A stretch of 11,867 nt of DNA from Candidatus Woesearchaeota archaeon CG10_big_fil_rev_8_21_14_0_10_32_24 (GTDB taxonomy: Archaea > Nanobdellota > Nanobdellia > Woesearchaeales > GW2011-AR9), in NCBI GenBank assembly GCA_002763025.1, contig PCYG01000059.1, positions 832 to 12,698 on the forward strand. The letters are read 5' to 3'. The position numbers and the translations under genes were made by a program. The first letter of the stretch is position 1, and every line of letters starts with the position of its first letter. The notes beneath the pieces are model-generated. The model made no database searches. It had not been told where the DNA came from and saw only the letters and a list, made by a program, of their open reading frames with translations. This document shows, piece by piece, positions 2,984 to 11,501 of the stretch.

Positions 2984-3565
2984 TTATGCTGCTTTTCTTT
3001 TAGATATCTGAACGCCTTTCTGCATACTTTCAACCCATTCTTCTGCATCCTGAACCATTTGTTGAGATTCTGAAATAATCTTAATTAAACTAAGAATAAA
3101 TTCTTCCATATCAGCAACACTTCTATTTTTAGCAATATGTCGTTCTAATAAAAAAATCCCATTATAAAGAGTATTTAATTTTGATAATAGCTTTTGAGAG
3201 TGATCTATCAGACCATCTTTCAAGATATTTTTTGCTTCTAAAAAATAGTCTTGATGTTCAAAAGGCACTGCAATATTTTTAAATTCGGAGTCCAGACTTT
3301 TTGAATAATCTCTCATTTTAAATTCTGCCTGCAATGCAAAACGTAAATCAGCTTTTGATTTTTCTAATTCATCTTTAACTTCACTTAACAAAATAGATTC
3401 ATTAATTCTTAAAGGCCCACTCTTGTCTTCTCTTTGAATAGCACCATCTAAATGTTTTTGAATTGTAAGCAAATCATCTAACTGCTTCCTGACAAGGTTA
3501 ATATTGTCTTTTAATTCGTCCACATACTTAAATTCTACAGATAACCAGGTTAATGTTTTATTCAT
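2984..3565 (-). CDS. Coiled-coil orphan protein coupled to the adenosyltransferase gene
   Basis: This is a 193-residue, almost wholly helical, charged protein. Heptad-like spacing of Leu/Ile is visible at about residues 14-50 (VDELKDNINLVRKQLDDLL), 60-85 (LLSEVKDELEKSKADL) and 120-180, suggesting a helical bundle or coiled coil. It has no signal peptide, membrane helix or cysteine, and a short basic tail (ISKRKAA). The ATG overlaps the end of the adenosyltransferase frame by eight bases (ATGAATAA), so translation is probably coupled and the two proteins are likely made together. That context allows a role in cobalamin handling or the reductase system, but no family is recognised and no function can be assigned. 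Confidence 0.75.
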   Translation of the reverse strand: MNKTLTWLSVEFKYVDELKDNINLVRKQLDDLLTIQKHLDGAIQREDKSGPLRINESILLSEVKDELEKSKADLRFALQAEFKMRDYSKSLDSEFKNIAVPFEHQDYFLEAKNILKDGLIDHSQKLLSKLNTLYNGIFLLERHIAKNRSVADMEEFILSLIKIISESQQMVQDAEEWVESMQKGVQISKRKAA

Positions 3566-4127
3566 GTTTTTCTACCCCATTAAAATATTTGTATATTGGT
3601 TGTTGTTCTTTCACTTCTAATTCATTATTAGCATGTCGTGCAAGAACATAAAATAAATCACTTAGTCTATTGACATATGATAATACAGAAGAGTTTAGAA
3701 GATGATTAGTACTCGCTTTTACTAAAACACGTTCCGTTCTTCGGGTAATGGAACAACATAAATGTAAAAATGAACTTGCCACTGTTCCTCCAGGGATAAT
3801 AAACGAAGTCTGTGGTGTGAGAACCCCAGTTATATTGTCAATCTGTTCTTCTATATCTTTAATATGTTGTTGTTGAATTTTTGGAATATCGTAATGGGGA
3901 AGATGAGAACTTGCCATATCTGCACCAACTGTAAAAAGATCGTGTTGGATTTTAGAAAGCAATCCACGTAATTTTTCATTTTCTACAAAACAAAGTGTAA
4001 CTCCAATCATGGAATTTAATTCATCAATAGATCCAAGTACTTCTATACGTAAATCATCTTTTGGAACTCTTGTACCCCCATAAAATGAGGTCTTTCCTTG
4101 ATCACCTGTTTTTGTATATATTTTCAT
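3558..4127 (-). CDS. PduO-type ATP:cob(I)alamin adenosyltransferase
   Basis: Transfers the 5'-deoxyadenosyl group of ATP to cob(I)alamin, making adenosylcobalamin, the cofactor of class II ribonucleotide reductases. Its 189 residues fit the PduO/MMAB family. Visible motifs: TKTGDQGKTS (5-14) and GGTRVPKDD (17-25) for ATP triphosphate binding, RIEVLGSIDELNS (27-39), FIIPGG (109-114), TRRTER (128-133) with the arginines and glutamate conserved in the family, and YVNRLSDLFYVLAR (151-164). It starts 18 bases after the nrdJ2 stop with a GTAGGT ribosome binding site and overlaps the next gene by eight bases, so it belongs to the nrdJ2 transcript. Placement beside two B12-dependent reductases indicates it feeds them. 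Nothing appears to be missing. Common names are pduO or cobO-like, and the exact symbol is left open. Confidence 0.95.
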   Translation of the reverse strand: MKIYTKTGDQGKTSFYGGTRVPKDDLRIEVLGSIDELNSMIGVTLCFVENEKLRGLLSKIQHDLFTVGADMASSHLPHYDIPKIQQQHIKDIEEQIDNITGVLTPQTSFIIPGGTVASSFLHLCCSITRRTERVLVKASTNHLLNSSVLSYVNRLSDLFYVLARHANNELEVKEQQPIYKYFNGVEKHE

Positions 4128-4145
4128 TACCTACCCATATTAATT

Positions 4146-6212
4146 TTAATACCCTTCTCCTATGTTAATCACTTGATCTTCATAACTTCCATCTCTATAA
4201 ATTGTAATTCCTTTACATTTAGATTTCCATGCAAGCATGTATGCTTCTTCCACATCTTTAATAGAAGTTGTGCGTGGAAAGTTGATGGTTTTTGAAATTG
4301 AATTATCTACATTCTTTTGTAAAGTAGATTGCATTTTAATATGCCATTCAGGTGTAATATCTTGAGCAGTGACAAAAATCTCCCGTACATCTTTCGGAAT
4401 TTCTTTAAACATTTGAATACCACCTGCTTTTGCGATTTTACGAATCAACTCAGAGCTATAAAATCCTCGCTCTTTTGCAACGTTCTCAAATGTTTTATTT
4501 AAGTAAATAATTTCTGAATCACCTAAAACTGTTTTCTGATAAGAAATTGCAAATAAAGGTTCACAACCAGGAGAGGCATCAGCTAAAATACTAATGGTAC
4601 CTGTTGGTGCTAATGAATTACACGTAAGATTCCTCATTTTTCTTCCTGCTTGTTGATGTTCAGATCCAATCCATCCAGGACATGTTCCACGCCGTTCTGC
4701 AAGTTTAGAAGACATTTCATAAGTTGTTGTTTTAATGAAATTCATTAATTTATCTGCTACTTCTAATCCTTCTTCAGAATCATATTTCAAACCTAATTTA
4801 ATTAAAAAATCTGCGAAACCCATCATCCCAAGTCCGAATTTTCTTGTATGTTTTGTGCATTCTTCAATTTCTTTTTGAGGATAACTATTCATGTCAATAA
4901 CATTATCTAAAAAGTGAACTGCAGTTTTTATTGTTTCACGAAGATCATCCCACATGATTTCTTTATTTTCTGTATCTACAAATTTATTTAAATTAAGAGA
5001 CCCGAGAACTACACCTTCATATGGAAGAAGAGGGGCTTCACCACATTGATTAGTGGTTTCAATTTCTCCAAGATGATTGCCGGGATGTTTCCTATTAATT
5101 TCATCAATAAAAATTAATCCAGGATCACCAGTTTTCCATGCGTTTTGGGTAATCATTGAAAACACATCACGTGCACGAAGTTTCCCTTGTTGTTTTCCTG
5201 TTTTAGGATCTGTAATAATATAATCTCTATCTGCTTCTACTGCCCTCATAAATCTATCTGTGACACCTACAGAAATATTGAAATTTTTTAAGGAAGTTTT
5301 ATCTCGTTTTGATTCTATAAAACGAATTATATCAGGATGATCAACTCGTAAAACTGCCATATTTGCACCAGGACGAATTCCACCCTGCCTAATTGCACCA
5401 AATGCACGATCAAAAACGTTCATGAATGCAACAGGTCCTGCTGCAATGCCTTGATGTTTTCCAACAGCATCCATCCTTGATCTTAAACGTGAAAAAGAAA
5501 AACCAGTTCCTGCACCACGTTGATGAATGAGAGCCGCATCTTTTAATGTACCAAAGATCCCCTCCATCGTATCAGTAATGGGGAGAACAAAACAGGACGA
5601 AAGTTGCTGATTTTTTGTCCCAGCATTTTTCAATGTGGGTGAATTTGGCATAAATTTTAATTCTGACATTACTTCAAAAAATCTTTTTTCATAATCTTTA
5701 ATTTCGGCATCCGTTCCATTATAATTTTTATCTGCGAGTGCAACATTTTCTGCGACACGTTGCAACATTTGTTCAGGTGTTTCAATTAAATTTCCTAATT
5801 CATCCTTTTGAAGATAACGACGTTCCAGAATACGAAGAGCTTGGTGTGAAAAATTCAAACATTCTTGGGATTCTTCTGTTCCGAGAATTAACGCTGACGT
5901 TTTCCTTTGCTCATCTTTTTTATGCCTATGGAGAATGTAAGCCTTTGCAATTTTCACATGCCCACATTCAATCAAAACTTCTTCTACAAGATCTTGCACA
6001 ACTTCAGCAGAAGGGATATTATCCTTATGGCGTGCTTTTAGATACGTGAGAACATCATTTGCAAGTTGAAGTGACAAGGTTCTATCTGCTAAATTTACTG
6101 AAAGAGCAGCTTTAAAAATCGCATCTGCAATCTTCACAACATCAAATTTAACAACTTTTCCACTACGCTTCTTTAATTCCTGTAGTTCTATGATTTCTTG
6201 TGGGTCTTGCAT
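4146..6212 (-). CDS. nrdJ: Short class II (adenosylcobalamin-dependent) ribonucleotide reductase paralog lacking redox cysteines
   Basis: Predicted to reduce ribonucleotides to deoxyribonucleotides using a thiyl radical made from adenosylcobalamin. Order: ATP-cone (about residues 17-105), then the ten-stranded barrel with PNSPT (189-193), SSCF (C207, first redox cysteine), the effector/specificity region HQRGAGTGFSFSRL (230-243), the thiyl motif NQCGE (N388, C390, E392), the phosphate loop APTGTIS (535-541) and CKGITIYRDGS (666-676). Two things are missing. The position 11 residues after C390, normally the second redox cysteine (PYESCNLGS in relatives), reads PYEGVVLGS with V401. The protein also ends at residue 688 soon after YRDGS, without the cysteine-pair tail that re-reduces the active site. 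The start lies where a leaderless transcript from the TATA at 6243-6236 would begin. It could be an enzyme with another reductant, a partner of NrdJ1, or a regulator. Confidence 0.92.
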   Translation of the reverse strand: MQDPQEIIELQELKKRSGKVVKFDVVKIADAIFKAALSVNLADRTLSLQLANDVLTYLKARHKDNIPSAEVVQDLVEEVLIECGHVKIAKAYILHRHKKDEQRKTSALILGTEESQECLNFSHQALRILERRYLQKDELGNLIETPEQMLQRVAENVALADKNYNGTDAEIKDYEKRFFEVMSELKFMPNSPTLKNAGTKNQQLSSCFVLPITDTMEGIFGTLKDAALIHQRGAGTGFSFSRLRSRMDAVGKHQGIAAGPVAFMNVFDRAFGAIRQGGIRPGANMAVLRVDHPDIIRFIESKRDKTSLKNFNISVGVTDRFMRAVEADRDYIITDPKTGKQQGKLRARDVFSMITQNAWKTGDPGLIFIDEINRKHPGNHLGEIETTNQCGEAPLLPYEGVVLGSLNLNKFVDTENKEIMWDDLRETIKTAVHFLDNVIDMNSYPQKEIEECTKHTRKFGLGMMGFADFLIKLGLKYDSEEGLEVADKLMNFIKTTTYEMSSKLAERRGTCPGWIGSEHQQAGRKMRNLTCNSLAPTGTISILADASPGCEPLFAISYQKTVLGDSEIIYLNKTFENVAKERGFYSSELIRKIAKAGGIQMFKEIPKDVREIFVTAQDITPEWHIKMQSTLQKNVDNSISKTINFPRTTSIKDVEEAYMLAWKSKCKGITIYRDGSYEDQVINIGEGY

Positions 6213-6263: not shown

Positions 6264-6626
6264 TTAAAATTCATCAAATTCCCAATTTTTTATAATATCA
6301 CAAAGATAAAGATTCCTCACAAGTTTATAATTAAGATCGTAAAGAATTCTTTTATTTTTTTGACCATTTTGATAAATTGTTTCTGTAACCTCGGTTGGTC
6401 TTCCATTAGATGGAGGTAAATTACATGAAGAAGTATTTACAAATATTGCAGGATATTCTCCTTGTCCTTCTTCTCGTTCTTTAATCACATTAACCAGCCA
6501 ATCAACAGTTTCCGAATTATTTAAAGGAGCATATCGTTTAGAATGACCCCCTTCAATAGTATAAGTTCCATCCTCACATCTTTTCCCATATAAAAATACA
6601 ACCTCGTATCCCTTTTGATTTTGCAT
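6264..6626 (-). CDS. Orphan 120-residue protein between the two reductases
   Basis: I do not recognise a family. The product appears soluble, with no signal peptide or membrane helix. The N-terminal part (YEVVFLYGKRCEDGTYTI) looks like beta strands around a turn. The middle has SETVDWLVNVIKEREEGQGEYPAIFVNTS, a helix then strand. The C-terminal part is basic (QNGQKNKRILYDLNYKLVRNLYLCDIIKN) and ends in the acidic WEFDEF. Cysteines are at about 17, 68 and 109, with no metal-site spacing. The ATG has no ribosome binding site but an AT-rich element about 27 bases upstream, so it may be leaderless. The gene sits between the terminator of nrdJ1 and the promoter of nrdJ2, on the same strand. That makes an accessory role possible, though nothing in the sequence proves it. 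Confidence 0.65.
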   Translation of the reverse strand: MQNQKGYEVVFLYGKRCEDGTYTIEGGHSKRYAPLNNSETVDWLVNVIKEREEGQGEYPAIFVNTSSCNLPPSNGRPTEVTETIYQNGQKNKRILYDLNYKLVRNLYLCDIIKNWEFDEF

Positions 6627-6746: not shown

Positions 6747-9700
6747 TTAACTACACCCAGTAGTCTCACCACATACTTCACACAGCATACAAGTCCCATT
6801 CTGTCGCATTTGTGATGCACCGCAACTTCTACATTTTTCTTTGCAAGCTGTTGTTATTTTTTGTGTTAGAGTTACAGAAGGTGATTGAACTGTTCCAACA
6901 TCGTCAAACTCTAAAAGGAATTCTTTCAACTCATTGAGAACTGGATGTTCGTGAGAGGTTAAAAATTTCTCTGCAATCAAATGTGGACTCATTCCCTGGG
7001 ACAAACTGAAATTCACTGCTGTAAGAATTGTATTTAACAAGACTTCCTGTGCAGGAATCAATCCTTCCATTGTAAAAGAAACTTCCTTTAAACTTCCTTC
7101 ATCTTCCCGTCCTTTCAACTGTAATTTTCTTGGTCCAATTTTAACACGTTTAATGATATTGTTAATGATAATAGTACCAGAAGAAACTGTTTCTTCCACA
7201 GGCGTATCAAAGATTTCTTTCAGTTCTGTATTTCCTTCTAATGTTGTATTAAGAGGTTGGGACAATTTACAACCATCTCTGTAAAGAGCTGTTGCCTTTG
7301 TGCCCATTTTCCATGCGTCGTAATATACTTGCTTAATTTGGGCAATGGTCCAATCAGGCGGCATATTTATTGTTTTTGAAATTGCACCTGAAATGAAGGC
7401 TTGTGCAGCGGCGAGCATTTTCAAATGTCCATAGGGATGAATATATCGTTCTCCTTTCTTCCCACATTTATTAGCACAATCGAAGATGTGAAGATGTTCT
7501 TCTTTCAAGTAAGGTGCACCTTCTAATGTCATGGTTCCACAAATATATTCATTTGCTTCTGCAATTTGTTGTTGAGAGAACCCTAACCCTGTCAGTAAAT
7601 CTCCCTCTTTACCTTGCATTAATGAATGGTACAAGTCTTCACCAATCGTCCAAATATTAAACACATGACGAATATCCATATTACTTCCAAGTTGTCTTTC
7701 AATATTTACAATTGCTTCTCCCGTAACCCCTTTATCAGAAAGTGTTCTTGCATTAATGTGTGGACTTCCATTTAATGATCCACGTCCTAAACAATATTTG
7801 ATGATTACATCAATTTCATGTTCTGGATAACCAAGTTTTTTCAATGCATTTGGTACGGATTGGTTCACAATTTTAAAGAATCCACCACCTGCTAATTTTT
7901 TGAATTTTACTAATGCATAATCTGGTTCTACTCCAGTGGTATCACAATCCATTACTAAACCAATTGTACCAGTTGGTGCAAGAACAGTTGTTTGTGCATT
8001 CCTAAATCCATATTTTTCTCCAAGAGATAATGCTCTATCCCAAGAATCATGTGCTGTTTCTAATAATGATTTAGGACAGATTTCTTGATCAATTGATTGT
8101 GGTAAGACTTCAAGATTTTCATAGTCAGTACGATTATATGCTGCTCTTCTATGATTCCTAATTACTTTCAACATATGTTCTTTGTTCTTTTCATACATTT
8201 GAAATGGTCCAAGAGTTGATGCAAGTTCTGCGGAAGTCGCATAAGAATCCCCGGTCATTATTGCAGCCATTGCAGCAGCGTATGCACGTCCTTCATCACT
8301 ATCGTAGGGAATTCCTTGTAACATTAACAATGTTCCAAGATTTGCAAATCCTAAACCTAATGTTCGGAATTGATAACTTTTAATAGCAATGGGATCAGAT
8401 GGAAATTGTGCCATAAGAACGGAGATTTCTAAGGTAATTGTCCATAACCGAATTGCATGCCTGTAACCTTCTATATCAAATCCTTTTTCTTGGGAATAAA
8501 ATTTTACAAGATTCATTGATGCCAAATTACAAGCAGTATCATCTAGAAACATGTATTCAGAACAATTATGGATGGTGATCCCATTTGCAACAAAACTATG
8601 GGTTAATGGTTCTGTTAAATCATAAACTTCTTCTTCTCCAAGAAATTCTAAACGTTCAACTGAATCTATTGGATAATCTTGATACGTTGATACATTAGCG
8701 TTTAGTTTTTTAAGTTTTTCTTGTTTTGGCGATTCTGCCATAAATCCAATTAGTTCCTGAAATAAAATACGATTAGACTTACTAATTCGTAAAGAATGCA
8801 TTTCACGAACTGAATATTCTTTCAATCCTCCTTTACCATCTGGTAATAAGGCTTTATCCTTACCTGCTCGACGATTTTTGTAAAGTTTACTTTTAATTCC
8901 AAAACCTAAAAGAAGAATTTGAGTATCTTTAAGAAGTTGCAAACTTGTTGAATCTAAAGCAACATATTGTGATTTTGTTCCATAATTTGCAACAGTCCCA
9001 TCAGCTGTAAATAATCCTTGTAAAACATATTTCTGTATCCCTAACCCTGCTTCAAAGATTTGTTGAGGGATACATTTTTGATGCCCTAATAAAGAAAGAT
9101 CCAAAATAGAACCCATTTTAGACCTCAAAGTACGATTTGTAATAACATATGCTGCAGAGCTTTGATGTAAACAAACTGTTGTAGCACTATTTTGATGCGT
9201 TTTTCTTTCATAATTTTCTTCAACATAAGAACAAAATTTATCTAAAATAGGAAGTTCCTCTTGAGCATTCATTGTGATTTGAATGCCATGATTAGAAGTG
9301 CCACATCCATCCCCAATATAAACACCTACCATTTGATAAAATGTAGAATCCTTTGGTTCAATAATTGCACTCACTGGGTTCATTGGCAATAATACACAAT
9401 CATCTTTCGTTAATTCACAAGCTTGAACATAATCCCTATTAATTGTAAAAACCTTATGATCTGCTGTTAATTTTAATTCGTAACCGCATTTCGTTGTTAA
9501 GCGATAAACCGGTTTTATACCCGTTTTAAATGAACCTTTAATTTGAGAACTAATAATTGTTCCCATATTTGTTAGGAGGTTTATTTCTTCCTCAATAAAA
9601 GAATCAATTCTTTTCCATTTCCCTCCATCTATTAATACTAAGGTGTCTCCAGTAACGCAGGGGTTACTTCCATTAATAGGACCGTCTTCAGGGCAAGTAT

Positions 9701-11045
9701 GCCATTCGTTAATCGTCGTATTATATTGTAAACCAGGATCTGCAGATGCCCATGCACAATAACCAATGTCATCCCATAATTCTGCAGCAGGAATAGTTTG
9801 CATTATTTCTCCTGTTTTTCTTCCAGTTAAATGCCATTCACGTCCTTCATTCAATGCTTTAAAAAATTCATTTGGAATTCTAATGGAATTATTACTATTC
9901 TGCCCAGAAACAGTGAGATAAGCTTCAGATTCATAATGTGTATCAAATTCTTGCAAAGGTAATTCATAACCTTGTTTTGCTAAATTTAATGCACGCACCA
10001 TGTAATTCACGGGAATATATTCTTTTGACGCAATTTGTAATAATTTTTTCACTTCAGGATTGTGTAAAGGATTTTCTTGTCCCTTAGATAATTCAATAAT
10101 TTTAGACAGTCTTTTCTTTAAGGTTTTACTTCCTGCAACTAGACCTGCTACTTTCTCTTCTTCACGAACTTTCCACCAAATAAAATCACGAATTTCAGGA
10201 TGATCTAAATCAAGAGAACACATTTTTGCTGCTCTTCGTGTTGTACCACCTGATTTAATACTACCCGCTGCTGTATCAAAGATTTTTAAAAAACTCATTA
10301 AACCTGAAGAGGTTCCGCCACCGGATAATTTTTCTCCTTTACCACGTATCTTAGAGAAATTACTTCCAGTACCTGAACCATACTTGAAGATTCGTGCTTC
10401 TCTTGTAAGCAAGGAAAAAATTCCTCCCTCAGTAACAAGATCATCATTTACAGATTGAATAAAGCATGCATGAGGTTGTGATCTTGTATATGCATCTTTA
10501 GAATACTCTAACTTTCCTGTAACAGGATCTACATAACTATGTCCTTGTGGTGGACCTGTTAAACCATATGCAAAATTTAATCCTGTTGTAAACCATTGTG
10601 GAGAGTTGGGAGCTGCTGATTGATTAATAATCATATAAACCATTTCATCGTAAAAAATTTGGCCATCTTCTGTAGATGCAAAATATCCATATTTCTCCCC
10701 CCAATTACGCCAACATCCCGCTAACCGATGTGCAATTTGTTTAATACTGGTTTCACTTCCCGTGATAACATTACCATTTTCATTTAATAATAAATCGCCT
10801 TTTTTATTTCGTAAGGGTACTTCTGCTTTACGGAAATATTTTTGTGCAAGAATATCTGTTGCAACTTGTGACCAAAAGTGAGGCACTTCAACATCATGCA
10901 TTTGAAAAACCATCGAACCATCAGGATTCTTGATTTCTGAACTACGAATGTCATATGTAAACATATCTATAGGGTTAATCCCTTCTTTTGTATAATAACG
11001 GGGGATTTTGAGTCCTTGTTTTTGTGTTGTTGCCATTGTTTCCAT
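6747..11045 (-). CDS. nrdJ: Long class II (B12-dependent) ribonucleotide reductase precursor with intein
   Basis: Makes deoxyribonucleotides with adenosylcobalamin as radical source. The frame encodes 1432 residues; removing the intein (463-827) leaves 1067, normal for the long NrdJ group. Visible: APNSPQWF (145-152), PHACF (C194, first redox cysteine), FKYGSGTGSNFSKI (220-233), the thiyl motif N461-P462 joined after splicing to C828-S-E830, C839 in DDTACNLAS (second redox cysteine, 11 residues after C828), APTGTIGL (1023-1030), ATALYRDGC (1251-1259) and a cysteine-rich tail (C1405, 1408, 1419, 1422, 1425, 1431) suited to re-reduction of the active site. No N-terminal ATP-cone is evident, unlike the neighbouring paralog. 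The start METMATT follows the nrdR stop by seven bases, with a TGAGGT ribosome binding site overlapping that stop, so the two are co-transcribed. All catalytic residues are present. Confidence 0.97.
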   Translation of the reverse strand: METMATTQKQGLKIPRYYTKEGINPIDMFTYDIRSSEIKNPDGSMVFQMHDVEVPHFWSQVATDILAQKYFRKAEVPLRNKKGDLLLNENGNVITGSETSIKQIAHRLAGCWRNWGEKYGYFASTEDGQIFYDEMVYMIINQSAAPNSPQWFTTGLNFAYGLTGPPQGHSYVDPVTGKLEYSKDAYTRSQPHACFIQSVNDDLVTEGGIFSLLTREARIFKYGSGTGSNFSKIRGKGEKLSGGGTSSGLMSFLKIFDTAAGSIKSGGTTRRAAKMCSLDLDHPEIRDFIWWKVREEEKVAGLVAGSKTLKKRLSKIIELSKGQENPLHNPEVKKLLQIASKEYIPVNYMVRALNLAKQGYELPLQEFDTHYESEAYLTVSGQNSNNSIRIPNEFFKALNEGREWHLTGRKTGEIMQTIPAAELWDDIGYCAWASADPGLQYNTTINEWHTCPEDGPINGSNPCVTGDTLVLIDGGKWKRIDSFIEEEINLLTNMGTIISSQIKGSFKTGIKPVYRLTTKCGYELKLTADHKVFTINRDYVQACELTKDDCVLLPMNPVSAIIEPKDSTFYQMVGVYIGDGCGTSNHGIQITMNAQEELPILDKFCSYVEENYERKTHQNSATTVCLHQSSAAYVITNRTLRSKMGSILDLSLLGHQKCIPQQIFEAGLGIQKYVLQGLFTADGTVANYGTKSQYVALDSTSLQLLKDTQILLLGFGIKSKLYKNRRAGKDKALLPDGKGGLKEYSVREMHSLRISKSNRILFQELIGFMAESPKQEKLKKLNANVSTYQDYPIDSVERLEFLGEEEVYDLTEPLTHSFVANGITIHNCSEYMFLDDTACNLASMNLVKFYSQEKGFDIEGYRHAIRLWTITLEISVLMAQFPSDPIAIKSYQFRTLGLGFANLGTLLMLQGIPYDSDEGRAYAAAMAAIMTGDSYATSAELASTLGPFQMYEKNKEHMLKVIRNHRRAAYNRTDYENLEVLPQSIDQEICPKSLLETAHDSWDRALSLGEKYGFRNAQTTVLAPTGTIGLVMDCDTTGVEPDYALVKFKKLAGGGFFKIVNQSVPNALKKLGYPEHEIDVIIKYCLGRGSLNGSPHINARTLSDKGVTGEAIVNIERQLGSNMDIRHVFNIWTIGEDLYHSLMQGKEGDLLTGLGFSQQQIAEANEYICGTMTLEGAPYLKEEHLHIFDCANKCGKKGERYIHPYGHLKMLAAAQAFISGAISKTINMPPDWTIAQIKQVYYDAWKMGTKATALYRDGCKLSQPLNTTLEGNTELKEIFDTPVEETVSSGTIIINNIIKRVKIGPRKLQLKGREDEGSLKEVSFTMEGLIPAQEVLLNTILTAVNFSLSQGMSPHLIAEKFLTSHEHPVLNELKEFLLEFDDVGTVQSPSVTLTQKITTACKEKCRSCGASQMRQNGTCMLCEVCGETTGCS
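8565..9659 (-). mobile_element. Intein with LAGLIDADG homing endonuclease inside nrdJ1
   Basis: This is a 365-residue in-frame insertion that splices itself out of the protein. It begins C463-VTGDTLV (splicing block A), has LTADHKVF (526-533, block B with its histidine), and ends THSFVANGITIHN (815-827), with the penultimate H826 and terminal N827 followed by C828. The two endonuclease motifs are VGVYIGDGC (573-581) and LQGLFTADG (675-683), each keeping an acidic residue at the catalytic position. The homing activity may therefore still be intact. The flanking host sequence SNP|CSEYMFLDD is continuous in intein-free reductases. The insertion falls immediately before the thiyl-radical cysteine, so the unspliced enzyme must be inactive. 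The residue before the intein is proline (P462). Confidence 0.95.
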
Positions 11046-11052
11046 TTTTTAT

Positions 11053-11484
11053 CTACCTCATTGCTTGAATTTCTTTTTCTAATTTTCGGGGGTCTTCAAT
11101 TTCTTTATAGACCATAGCATATCGTAAATATGCCATTTTATCTTCTTTCTTTAATTCTTGAAGAATGAATCCACCTATGTGAATTGTTTTAATTGGGTTT
11201 ACTTTTTTATTAAGAATTTTTTTATGTACTCTCATTGCTAAAGATTTGACGATCTGTTCATCAACTTTTCCATATGCGGGTTTGATACTTCGCTTTATTT
11301 TTTCTAAATCAAAATCTTGAATTCGCCCATCTTTTTTTTGAACTTTAAGATTAAATTCCGCACGTTCATAGGTTGTAAATCTCTGATCACAGGATTGACA
11401 GGATCTTCTACGCCTCAGCGAATCATCTATAACTCTAGATTCAAGAACTTTTGTGTCATTATTATTACAAAATGGGCAATACAT
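11053..11484 (-). CDS. nrdR: NrdR, transcriptional repressor of ribonucleotide reductase genes
   Basis: Nucleotide-sensing DNA-binding repressor of reductase genes. A zinc ribbon, CPFC (C3, C6) with CQSC (C29, C32), and the basic run RRRR (24-27) form the DNA-binding head. FTTYER (36-41) is the family signature. An ATP-cone follows (about residues 47-130, starting VQKKDGRIQDFDLEKI) that binds ATP or dATP and sets the DNA-binding state. Its 143 residues match the usual 140-160. The frame can be extended to a TTG at 11490 or an ATG at 11487. The ATG at 11484 gives MYCPFC, like known NrdR proteins, and six-base spacing from the AGAGGT site. It is the first gene of the nrdR-nrdJ1 unit, and NrdR-box-like sites lie upstream, so it probably controls itself and nrdJ1. 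NrdR is mainly bacterial and rarer in archaea. Confidence 0.96.
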   Translation of the reverse strand: MYCPFCNNNDTKVLESRVIDDSLRRRRSCQSCDQRFTTYERAEFNLKVQKKDGRIQDFDLEKIKRSIKPAYGKVDEQIVKSLAMRVHKKILNKKVNPIKTIHIGGFILQELKKEDKMAYLRYAMVYKEIEDPRKLEKEIQAMR

Positions 11485-11501
11485 CATCAAACCTCTTTTA
11501 G

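Follow-up and report, generated by a model that had tools for sequence, protein, structure and literature searches.

NrdJ2, a class II ribonucleotide reductase (RNR) paralog encoded in an 11,867-nucleotide stretch of woesearchaeal DNA (the window), is interpreted here, with roughly even confidence, as the accessory α′ subunit of a class II RNR that depends on AdoCbl and is built as a heteromer, with its neighbor NrdJ1 as the proposed partner. A mixed complex or specialized subunit was among the explanations offered by an earlier, sequence-only reading of the same DNA, and it fits best because most genomes that encode a tailless copy encode a tailed NrdJ as well, often adjoining it, and because transfer from a class II tail to a neighboring subunit has been shown (PMC5704485, in the sections compared). 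The physical complex itself, the role of the ATP-cone, radical formation on NrdJ2 and the action of a tail in trans we infer from these patterns.

NrdJ2 and Its Neighbors

NrdJ2 (4146..6212, minus strand) is a tailless class II RNR alpha paralog of 688 amino acids, in which an ATP-cone (residues 15–101) and an lgN segment (residues 120–202) precede a 10-stranded barrel. The barrel and all-alpha domain of RNR large subunits are both present, with profile scores of 435.9 bits for PF02867 and 83.9 bits for PF00317, and the score against TIGR02504 (NrdJ_Z) of 668.1 bits exceeds the cut-off of 399.95. The predicted structure matches Thermotoga maritima NrdJ (VIA-align 2). The finger loop, NQCGE, conforms to the class II pattern NxCxE and contains the intact thiyl-radical cysteine C390 (codon TGT, 5043..5045, minus strand). 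Of the class II redox pair, the first cysteine, C207 on betaA (codon TGT, 5592..5594, minus strand), is present, and the place of the second, on betaF, is taken by V401 (codon 5010..5012, minus strand; G400-V401-V402 is GGT GTA GTT). The protein ends 12 residues past YRDGS (codons 4149..4184, minus strand), and these hold neither a CxxC nor any other cysteine in place of the class II tail. The sequence-only reading had reported each of these features, together with C828, C839 and the CxxC-rich tail of NrdJ1, and all of them could be read directly.

In an alignment with T. maritima NrdJ (PDB 1xje, 3o0o), a dimeric class II enzyme, positions 207, 388, 390, 392 and 401 of NrdJ2 correspond to 134, 320, 322, 324 and 333, which are C, N, C, E and C in that enzyme; C333 is therefore the equivalent of V401. 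Unlike NrdJ2, T. maritima NrdJ has no N-terminal ATP-cone, and it was crystallized in a C-terminally truncated form (PMC5704485, sections compared).

The proposed partner, NrdJ1 (6747..11045, minus strand), is a tailed class II RNR of the PF08471 type with 1432 amino acids, its own barrel, all catalytic cysteines and a CxxC-rich tail, and it gave no ATP-cone match. Residues 463–827 form a LAGLIDADG-type intein (8565..9659, minus strand), which sits directly before the thiyl cysteine, C828 being the first C-extein residue; NrdJ1 would therefore presumably have no enzyme function until splicing. Upstream of NrdJ1 lies an NrdR-like repressor gene (11053..11490, minus strand) with a Zn ribbon and an ATP-cone, whose product scores 115 bits against TIGR00244, below the cut-off of 124.65. 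The next gene downstream of NrdJ2 encodes a PduO-type ATP:cob(I)alamin adenosyltransferase, a maker of AdoCbl (3558..4127, minus strand).

The ORFs at 6264–6626 and 2984–3565, beside NrdJ2 and PduO, gave no Pfam or NCBIfam match. The second of these, of 193 amino acids, shares 8 bases with pduO, and relatives at 36–40% occupy the same place in loci L035 and L043. A redox tail on a small neighboring gene was considered and rejected, as neither ORF shows a CxxC by eye; where a split NrdJa/NrdJb enzyme would have its tail on a small NrdJb chain, the neighbor here is the 1432-residue NrdJ1 with a barrel of its own. The window gave no Rfam match at the gathering threshold and no tRNA.

Purifying Selection on NrdJ2

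Pairwise dN/dS for NrdJ2 is 0.067–0.082 (window, L035 and L043), close to the values for NrdJ1 (window versus L035: N-extein, 0.056; C-extein, 0.090) and PduO (0.089), although the ratios are rough because dS is near 1. NrdJ2 is under purifying selection similar to that on its neighbors. Loss of function through plain decay, or through selection that relaxed once the gene had been duplicated, would account for the variation of active-site residues described below, but is extremely unlikely given dN/dS of about 0.07–0.08, the conserved gene order, the 22 alignment columns that never change, C390 included, and the presence of tailless copies in 15 family codes. The earlier argument that an intact radical site speaks against simple decay is borne out by the same ratios and by C390, which is present in 217 of 217 rows of the phylum tree.

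The Tail Is Lost throughout the Clade and C401 Repeatedly within It

Whether the short C terminus and V401 are traits of a clade had been named as a check by the sequence-only reading. In a homolog search the 7999 candidates sharing most words were scored, and the 120 homologs listed were aligned with the window protein, giving 121 clade rows (P0001 and P0003 are both the window protein). Among these listed matches, a cysteine past YRDGS is found in 0 of 121 rows, and position 401 is Cys in 80, Ile in 34, Val in 5 and Ser in 2. In a tree of the 121 listed rows built without column 401, this position switches between Cys and another residue at least 6 times. The whole clade thus shares the tail loss, and C401 has been lost repeatedly inside it. 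The missing tail unites all 121 listed rows; V401 does not by itself define the clade, in whose wider range Cys401 prevails.

Val401 occurs in all relatives seen at ≥88% identity (P0004 and P0005, genomes G371 and G102), and beyond these in one further case among the matches listed, P0094 (66%). Since all relatives at ≥88% identity have Val, V401 is not a sequencing error. An artifact or misplaced stop was likewise rejected, given the tailless end common to all 121 listed clade rows and the presence of V401 in further assemblies. The refuting condition set by the sequence-only reading, Cys401 in most close relatives, holds for the wide clade (80 of 121 listed rows) but not at ≥88% identity.

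C390, N388 and E392 are each found in 121 of 121 rows among the matches listed, and C207 in 120. Gln replaces the Pro before the thiyl cysteine in all 121 listed rows; at this place P predominates in class II finger loops (PMC9669993, sections compared). Two further cysteines, C531 (119 of 121 listed rows) and C550 (121 of 121), are uncommon outside the NrdJ2 clade except in its tailed sisters.

Several of these counts bear on a somewhat unlikely alternative, in which NrdJ2 would be a working reductase recharged in trans by the NrdJ1 tail or by a redoxin, with another thiol replacing C401: C531, C550, or a tail cysteine that attacks C207 directly. Retention of C207 in 120 of the 121 listed rows, when C401 has been lost in 41, is in its favor, as are the conservation of C531, C550, N388 and E392, the thioredoxin-family matches in all 14 genomes tested (above the cut-off in 13), and genome G018, which appears to live on tailless NrdJ alone. 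However, the tailed sisters L022–L024 have both C531 and C550 along with an intact redox pair, so these two cysteines are not a replacement gained on tail loss, and a compensating pair of that kind is not supported. In addition, C207, N388 and C401 have been lost together in some other tailless lineages.

The Glycyl-Radical Domain and Finger-Loop Met of Class III Are Absent

With betaA and thiyl cysteines and no betaF cysteine, NrdJ2 has the cysteine pattern of class III NrdD (PMC9669993, sections compared), and formate had been raised as a possible electron donor. Use of formate in the manner of class III enzymes is nevertheless very unlikely. Class III finger loops carry the motifs MGCR or MCCR, and reduction by formate as in class III would require the finger-loop Met, according to the same sections of PMC9669993. 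NrdJ2 reads TTNQCGE at this place, ends 12 residues past YRDGS where a glycyl-radical domain would lie, and, unlike NrdD, is encoded next to a PduO gene. The source genome (G000) gave no match to PF13597, the glycyl-radical domain, or to NrdD. C401 is retained in 80 of 121 clade rows among the matches listed, and the betaA cysteine is gone in some tailless lineages, among them those with the SDCDG set.

Searches for a class III gene above the cut-off found none among the 49 genomes that make up the family of the window or among 37 genomes that have tailless copies; a search of the 49 family genomes for class I beta likewise found none. The family therefore appears to rely on NrdJ. The absence of class I beta from the 49 genomes, together with the PduO gene that adjoins NrdJ2 and is fused to it in G288, would fit, indirectly, a dependence of NrdJ2 on AdoCbl.

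Tailless Copies Mostly Occur with Tailed Partners

In the window's family (49 genomes), NrdJ1 of the PF08471 type was found in 25 of 28 genomes with NrdJ2, counted at ≥60% identity and including one 65-residue fragment, versus 4 of 21 without (Fisher p 8e-7, relatedness ignored). In two of the NrdJ2 genomes without NrdJ1, G385 and G092, the gene just upstream is a different tailed NrdJ, and the third, G288, is 86% complete. Where NrdJ1 was found by itself, the contig ends right after it in G053 and G200, and G377 has an N-terminal fragment alone. In G169 (89% complete), which seems to be a true exception, NrdJ1 lies well inside a 20.7-kb contig and NrdJ2 has no match, so NrdJ1 can apparently act alone.

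The association extends across the phylum. For the adjacency and partner counts, the G204 copy (cut at its 3′ end) and the G329 copy (no barrel) were dropped. Among 62 phylum genomes with a complete tailless copy, a tailed partner was seen in 49; in 8 the end of the partner falls outside the fetched stretch or contig, and in 5 (G018, G229, G247, G306 and G335) there was none. An NrdJ neighbor within 3 kb was present for 42 of 65 tailless copies, on the same strand in all 42 and upstream in 40. Tail cysteines are carried by 38 of these 42 neighbors, the others being three G018 copies among themselves and one 68-residue fragment in G342. The partners are of the PF08471, NPCGEQFLH and NPCAEIWLL types, and this variety suggests repeated pairing.

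ATP-cones were called with an HMM of our own, with which Pfam agreed in 10 of 10 proteins, and the N-terminal barrel of the partner was seen in all 51 pairs compared. The cone is on the tailless copy only in 31 pairs, on the partner only in 9, on both in 7 and on neither in 4, two of the last having a cut N terminus. With exactly one cone in 40 of 51 pairs only, complementarity of the cones was rejected as a universal rule.

Fused tailed–tailless proteins were not found: each of 11 NrdJ ORFs longer than 1150 amino acids has one PTG-type motif, in a check that was crude, being made by motif with some genes counted twice. A fusion of another kind is seen in G288 (L161:7447-10155, like L044:7447-10155), where a 903-residue frame joins NrdJ2 to a PduO-like C-terminal part whose end looks like the window PduO when compared by eye, which may mean that the adenosyltransferase acts for the NrdJ2 subunit. 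In G108 (L219:4517-6776), the tailed partner is split into frames of 426 and 335 amino acids just upstream of the tailless copy.

Among the genomes with no tailed partner, G018 (99% complete) has three tandem NrdJ copies (L169:944-6746), all tailless and all with C207, N388, C390, E392 and C401 intact, and a search for RNR genes besides these three found none; a tail is therefore not always needed. A P-loop ORF beside the trio looks by eye like a CobA/BtuR-type adenosyltransferase. G229, G247 and G306, at 87–89% completeness, have the tailless gene only. In G335 (L291:1838-5409), a 944-residue NrdJ without tail cysteines is followed by a 238-residue ORF with CPEC and CMTC, possibly a split tail and the sole candidate of this kind among the few loci inspected.

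The Thiyl Cysteine Is Retained while Other Catalytic Residues Vary

A survey of the phylum yielded 215 deduplicated NrdJ ORFs from 130 genomes. The underlying sample consisted of 371 genomes drawn from a larger group, with at most 3 candidates scored per genome and 120 regions selected by hand; because these regions were chosen from search matches, the set of 130 genomes was not drawn at random, and its MAGs are incomplete. Of the 195 ORFs with a readable C terminus, 128 are tailed and 67 tailless; the catalytic columns are not covered by 15 of the former and by one of the latter, a fragment from G329, which leaves 113 tailed and 66 tailless copies. The 113 include the G288 NrdJ2-PduO fusion, whose cysteines lie in the PduO part, and the 66 include the second NrdJ of G335 and the cut G204 copy. 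For the dN/dS and 217-row tree sets, the G288 fusion was moved to the tailless group and L110, cut by a contig end, was dropped.

The tailed copies have C390 and E392 in all 113 cases, C207 in 112, and N388 and C401 in 111. The 66 tailless copies, from genomes that span 15 family codes, retain C390 in all 66, E392 in 59, C207 in 52, C401 in 43 and N388 in 32, and many of them have all five residues. In the 217-row tree, with the tail state scored for 216 rows, the minimum number of state changes is 11 for the tail, 14 for position 401, 10 for 388, 8 for 207, 3 for 392 and none for 390; the number of independent tail losses is approximate because the trees are from FastTree and several tailless clades are weakly supported (18–35).

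Barrel columns conserved at ≥97% in 148 tailed rows were compared with the same columns in 68 tailless rows, where a value <75% was scored as a fall, both thresholds being our choice. Six of the 75 conserved columns fall in the tailless rows (S258, S262, N388, P389, C401 and A535), and the reverse comparison, of tailless against tailed rows, gave 0 of 68. Of these, N388 and P389 are the finger-loop residues next to the thiyl cysteine, C401 is the redox cysteine, and A535 lies beside the PTG loop. C390 is among 22 wholly unchanged columns of 538, and G538 and R673 are retained in 68 of 68 tailless rows. When tail loss was set against change at 207, 388 or 401, on average 5.5 pairs went the same way, 0.3 the opposite way and 3.2 showed no difference; a phylogeny-aware sign test on the 9 supported pairs gave a median p of 0.0625, which misses 0.05.

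Individual loci illustrate the range of these changes. The most extreme paralogs (L170:4482-6500, L171:8132-10198, L075:847-2907 and L078:243-2258) have Ser207, Asp388, Asp392 and Gly401, and their finger loop, DPCGD, retains the thiyl cysteine. In genus code g101, the second NrdJ differs between two genomes, with Asn388 and a tail of two cysteines in G155 (L167:7782-9872) versus Ser388 and no tail cysteine in G203 (L168:7815-9905), a difference that perhaps reflects recent tail loss. Paralogs in G294 (L177:4606-6768) and G028 (L234:6687-8864) have lost C401 and N388, have tail cysteines and lie beside an intact tailed NrdJ; they are possible intermediates.

The persistence of C390 in all 217 rows, against a minimum of 10 changes at N388, 8 at C207 and 14 at C401, could also reflect radical chemistry that does not end in reduction, in which NrdJ2 would abstract a ribose hydrogen and make or sense some other nucleotide product. 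Although retention of G538 and R673 in all 68 tailless rows agrees with such a role, it is distinctly unlikely: no product is known, the window has no recognizable extra pathway gene beside NrdJ2, and enzymes without these cysteines are known to self-inactivate.

A Proposed Two-Subunit Reductase

In the arrangement preferred here, with NrdJ2 as accessory subunit, NrdJ1 would be the self-sufficient reductase, having the full catalytic set and a cysteine tail that a redoxin could recharge, but no ATP-cone. NrdJ2 would contribute its retained fold, phosphate-binding PTG loop, C390 and ATP-cone. Without a tail and, in its genus, without the second redox cysteine, NrdJ2 should on known chemistry be incapable of repeated reductive turnover alone. 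By pairing with NrdJ1 it may add control of activity by dATP/ATP and an effector site at the dimer interface. NrdJ2 would retain AdoCbl-dependent formation of the thiyl radical and draw any electrons from the tail of NrdJ1. C390 never changes, yet a regulator with a structural role alone would be expected to do without it; we read this as pointing to retained thiyl formation, whether for turnover on borrowed electrons or for another role.

Such a pair of tailed and tailless class II genes is proposed to be a variant on known split-tail and cross-talk enzymes. In the Pseudomonas aeruginosa NrdJa/NrdJb system, as here, the catalytic chain has no tail and the redox tail is on another polypeptide (PMC4520616, sections compared). 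Unlike NrdJb, which is a small tail protein, the other chain here is a complete second reductase, and, unlike the split enzyme, tailless NrdJ2 has also lost a catalytic cysteine. In Stackebrandtia nassauensis NrdJ, a tail can deliver electrons across to the active site of a different subunit, but this is a one-gene homo-oligomer and the cross talk was shown with engineered mutants (PMC5704485, sections compared). Class II enzymes without C-terminal cysteines also appear in the survey of PMC9669993, where 26% of C termini without a zinc finger have no cysteine and roughly 40% of these are split NrdJa; active sites and tandem tailed partners do not figure in its sections compared. Searches of the open-license literature for woesearchaeal class II RNR and for gene pairs of this kind found no matching description, which is weak evidence of novelty.

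A more far-reaching reading is doubtful and is suggested tentatively: tailless NrdJ proteins may be recurrent, radical-competent but redox-disarmed subunits of two-gene class II RNRs, serving as radical-dependent regulators or in a non-reductive nucleotide chemistry of their own. If this is true, they make a thiyl radical with AdoCbl yet have given up the reductive half-reaction.

Implications for RNR in These Archaea

The class II reductases described in the sections compared of PMC9669993, PMC5704485 and PMC4520616 are monomers, homo-oligomers, or a catalytic chain with a small tail chain. A system of two reductases, in which reductive residues disappear from one copy but the radical cysteine never does, would show how the radical step, the reductive step and control by the ATP-cone can be divided between subunits. 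That C390 stays constant where the rest of an active site has altered raises the question of whether a non-reducing reductase still makes a thiyl radical, and why. Many small-genome archaea carry two NrdJ genes, frequently adjacent; the window copy, without its tail and one of its two redox cysteines but with the radical cysteine, points to an enzyme in two parts, of which one is a specialized partner that is not self-sufficient. Source names label such copies simply as ribonucleoside-diphosphate reductase, and a two-reductase system would alter the interpretation of RNR genes in this group.
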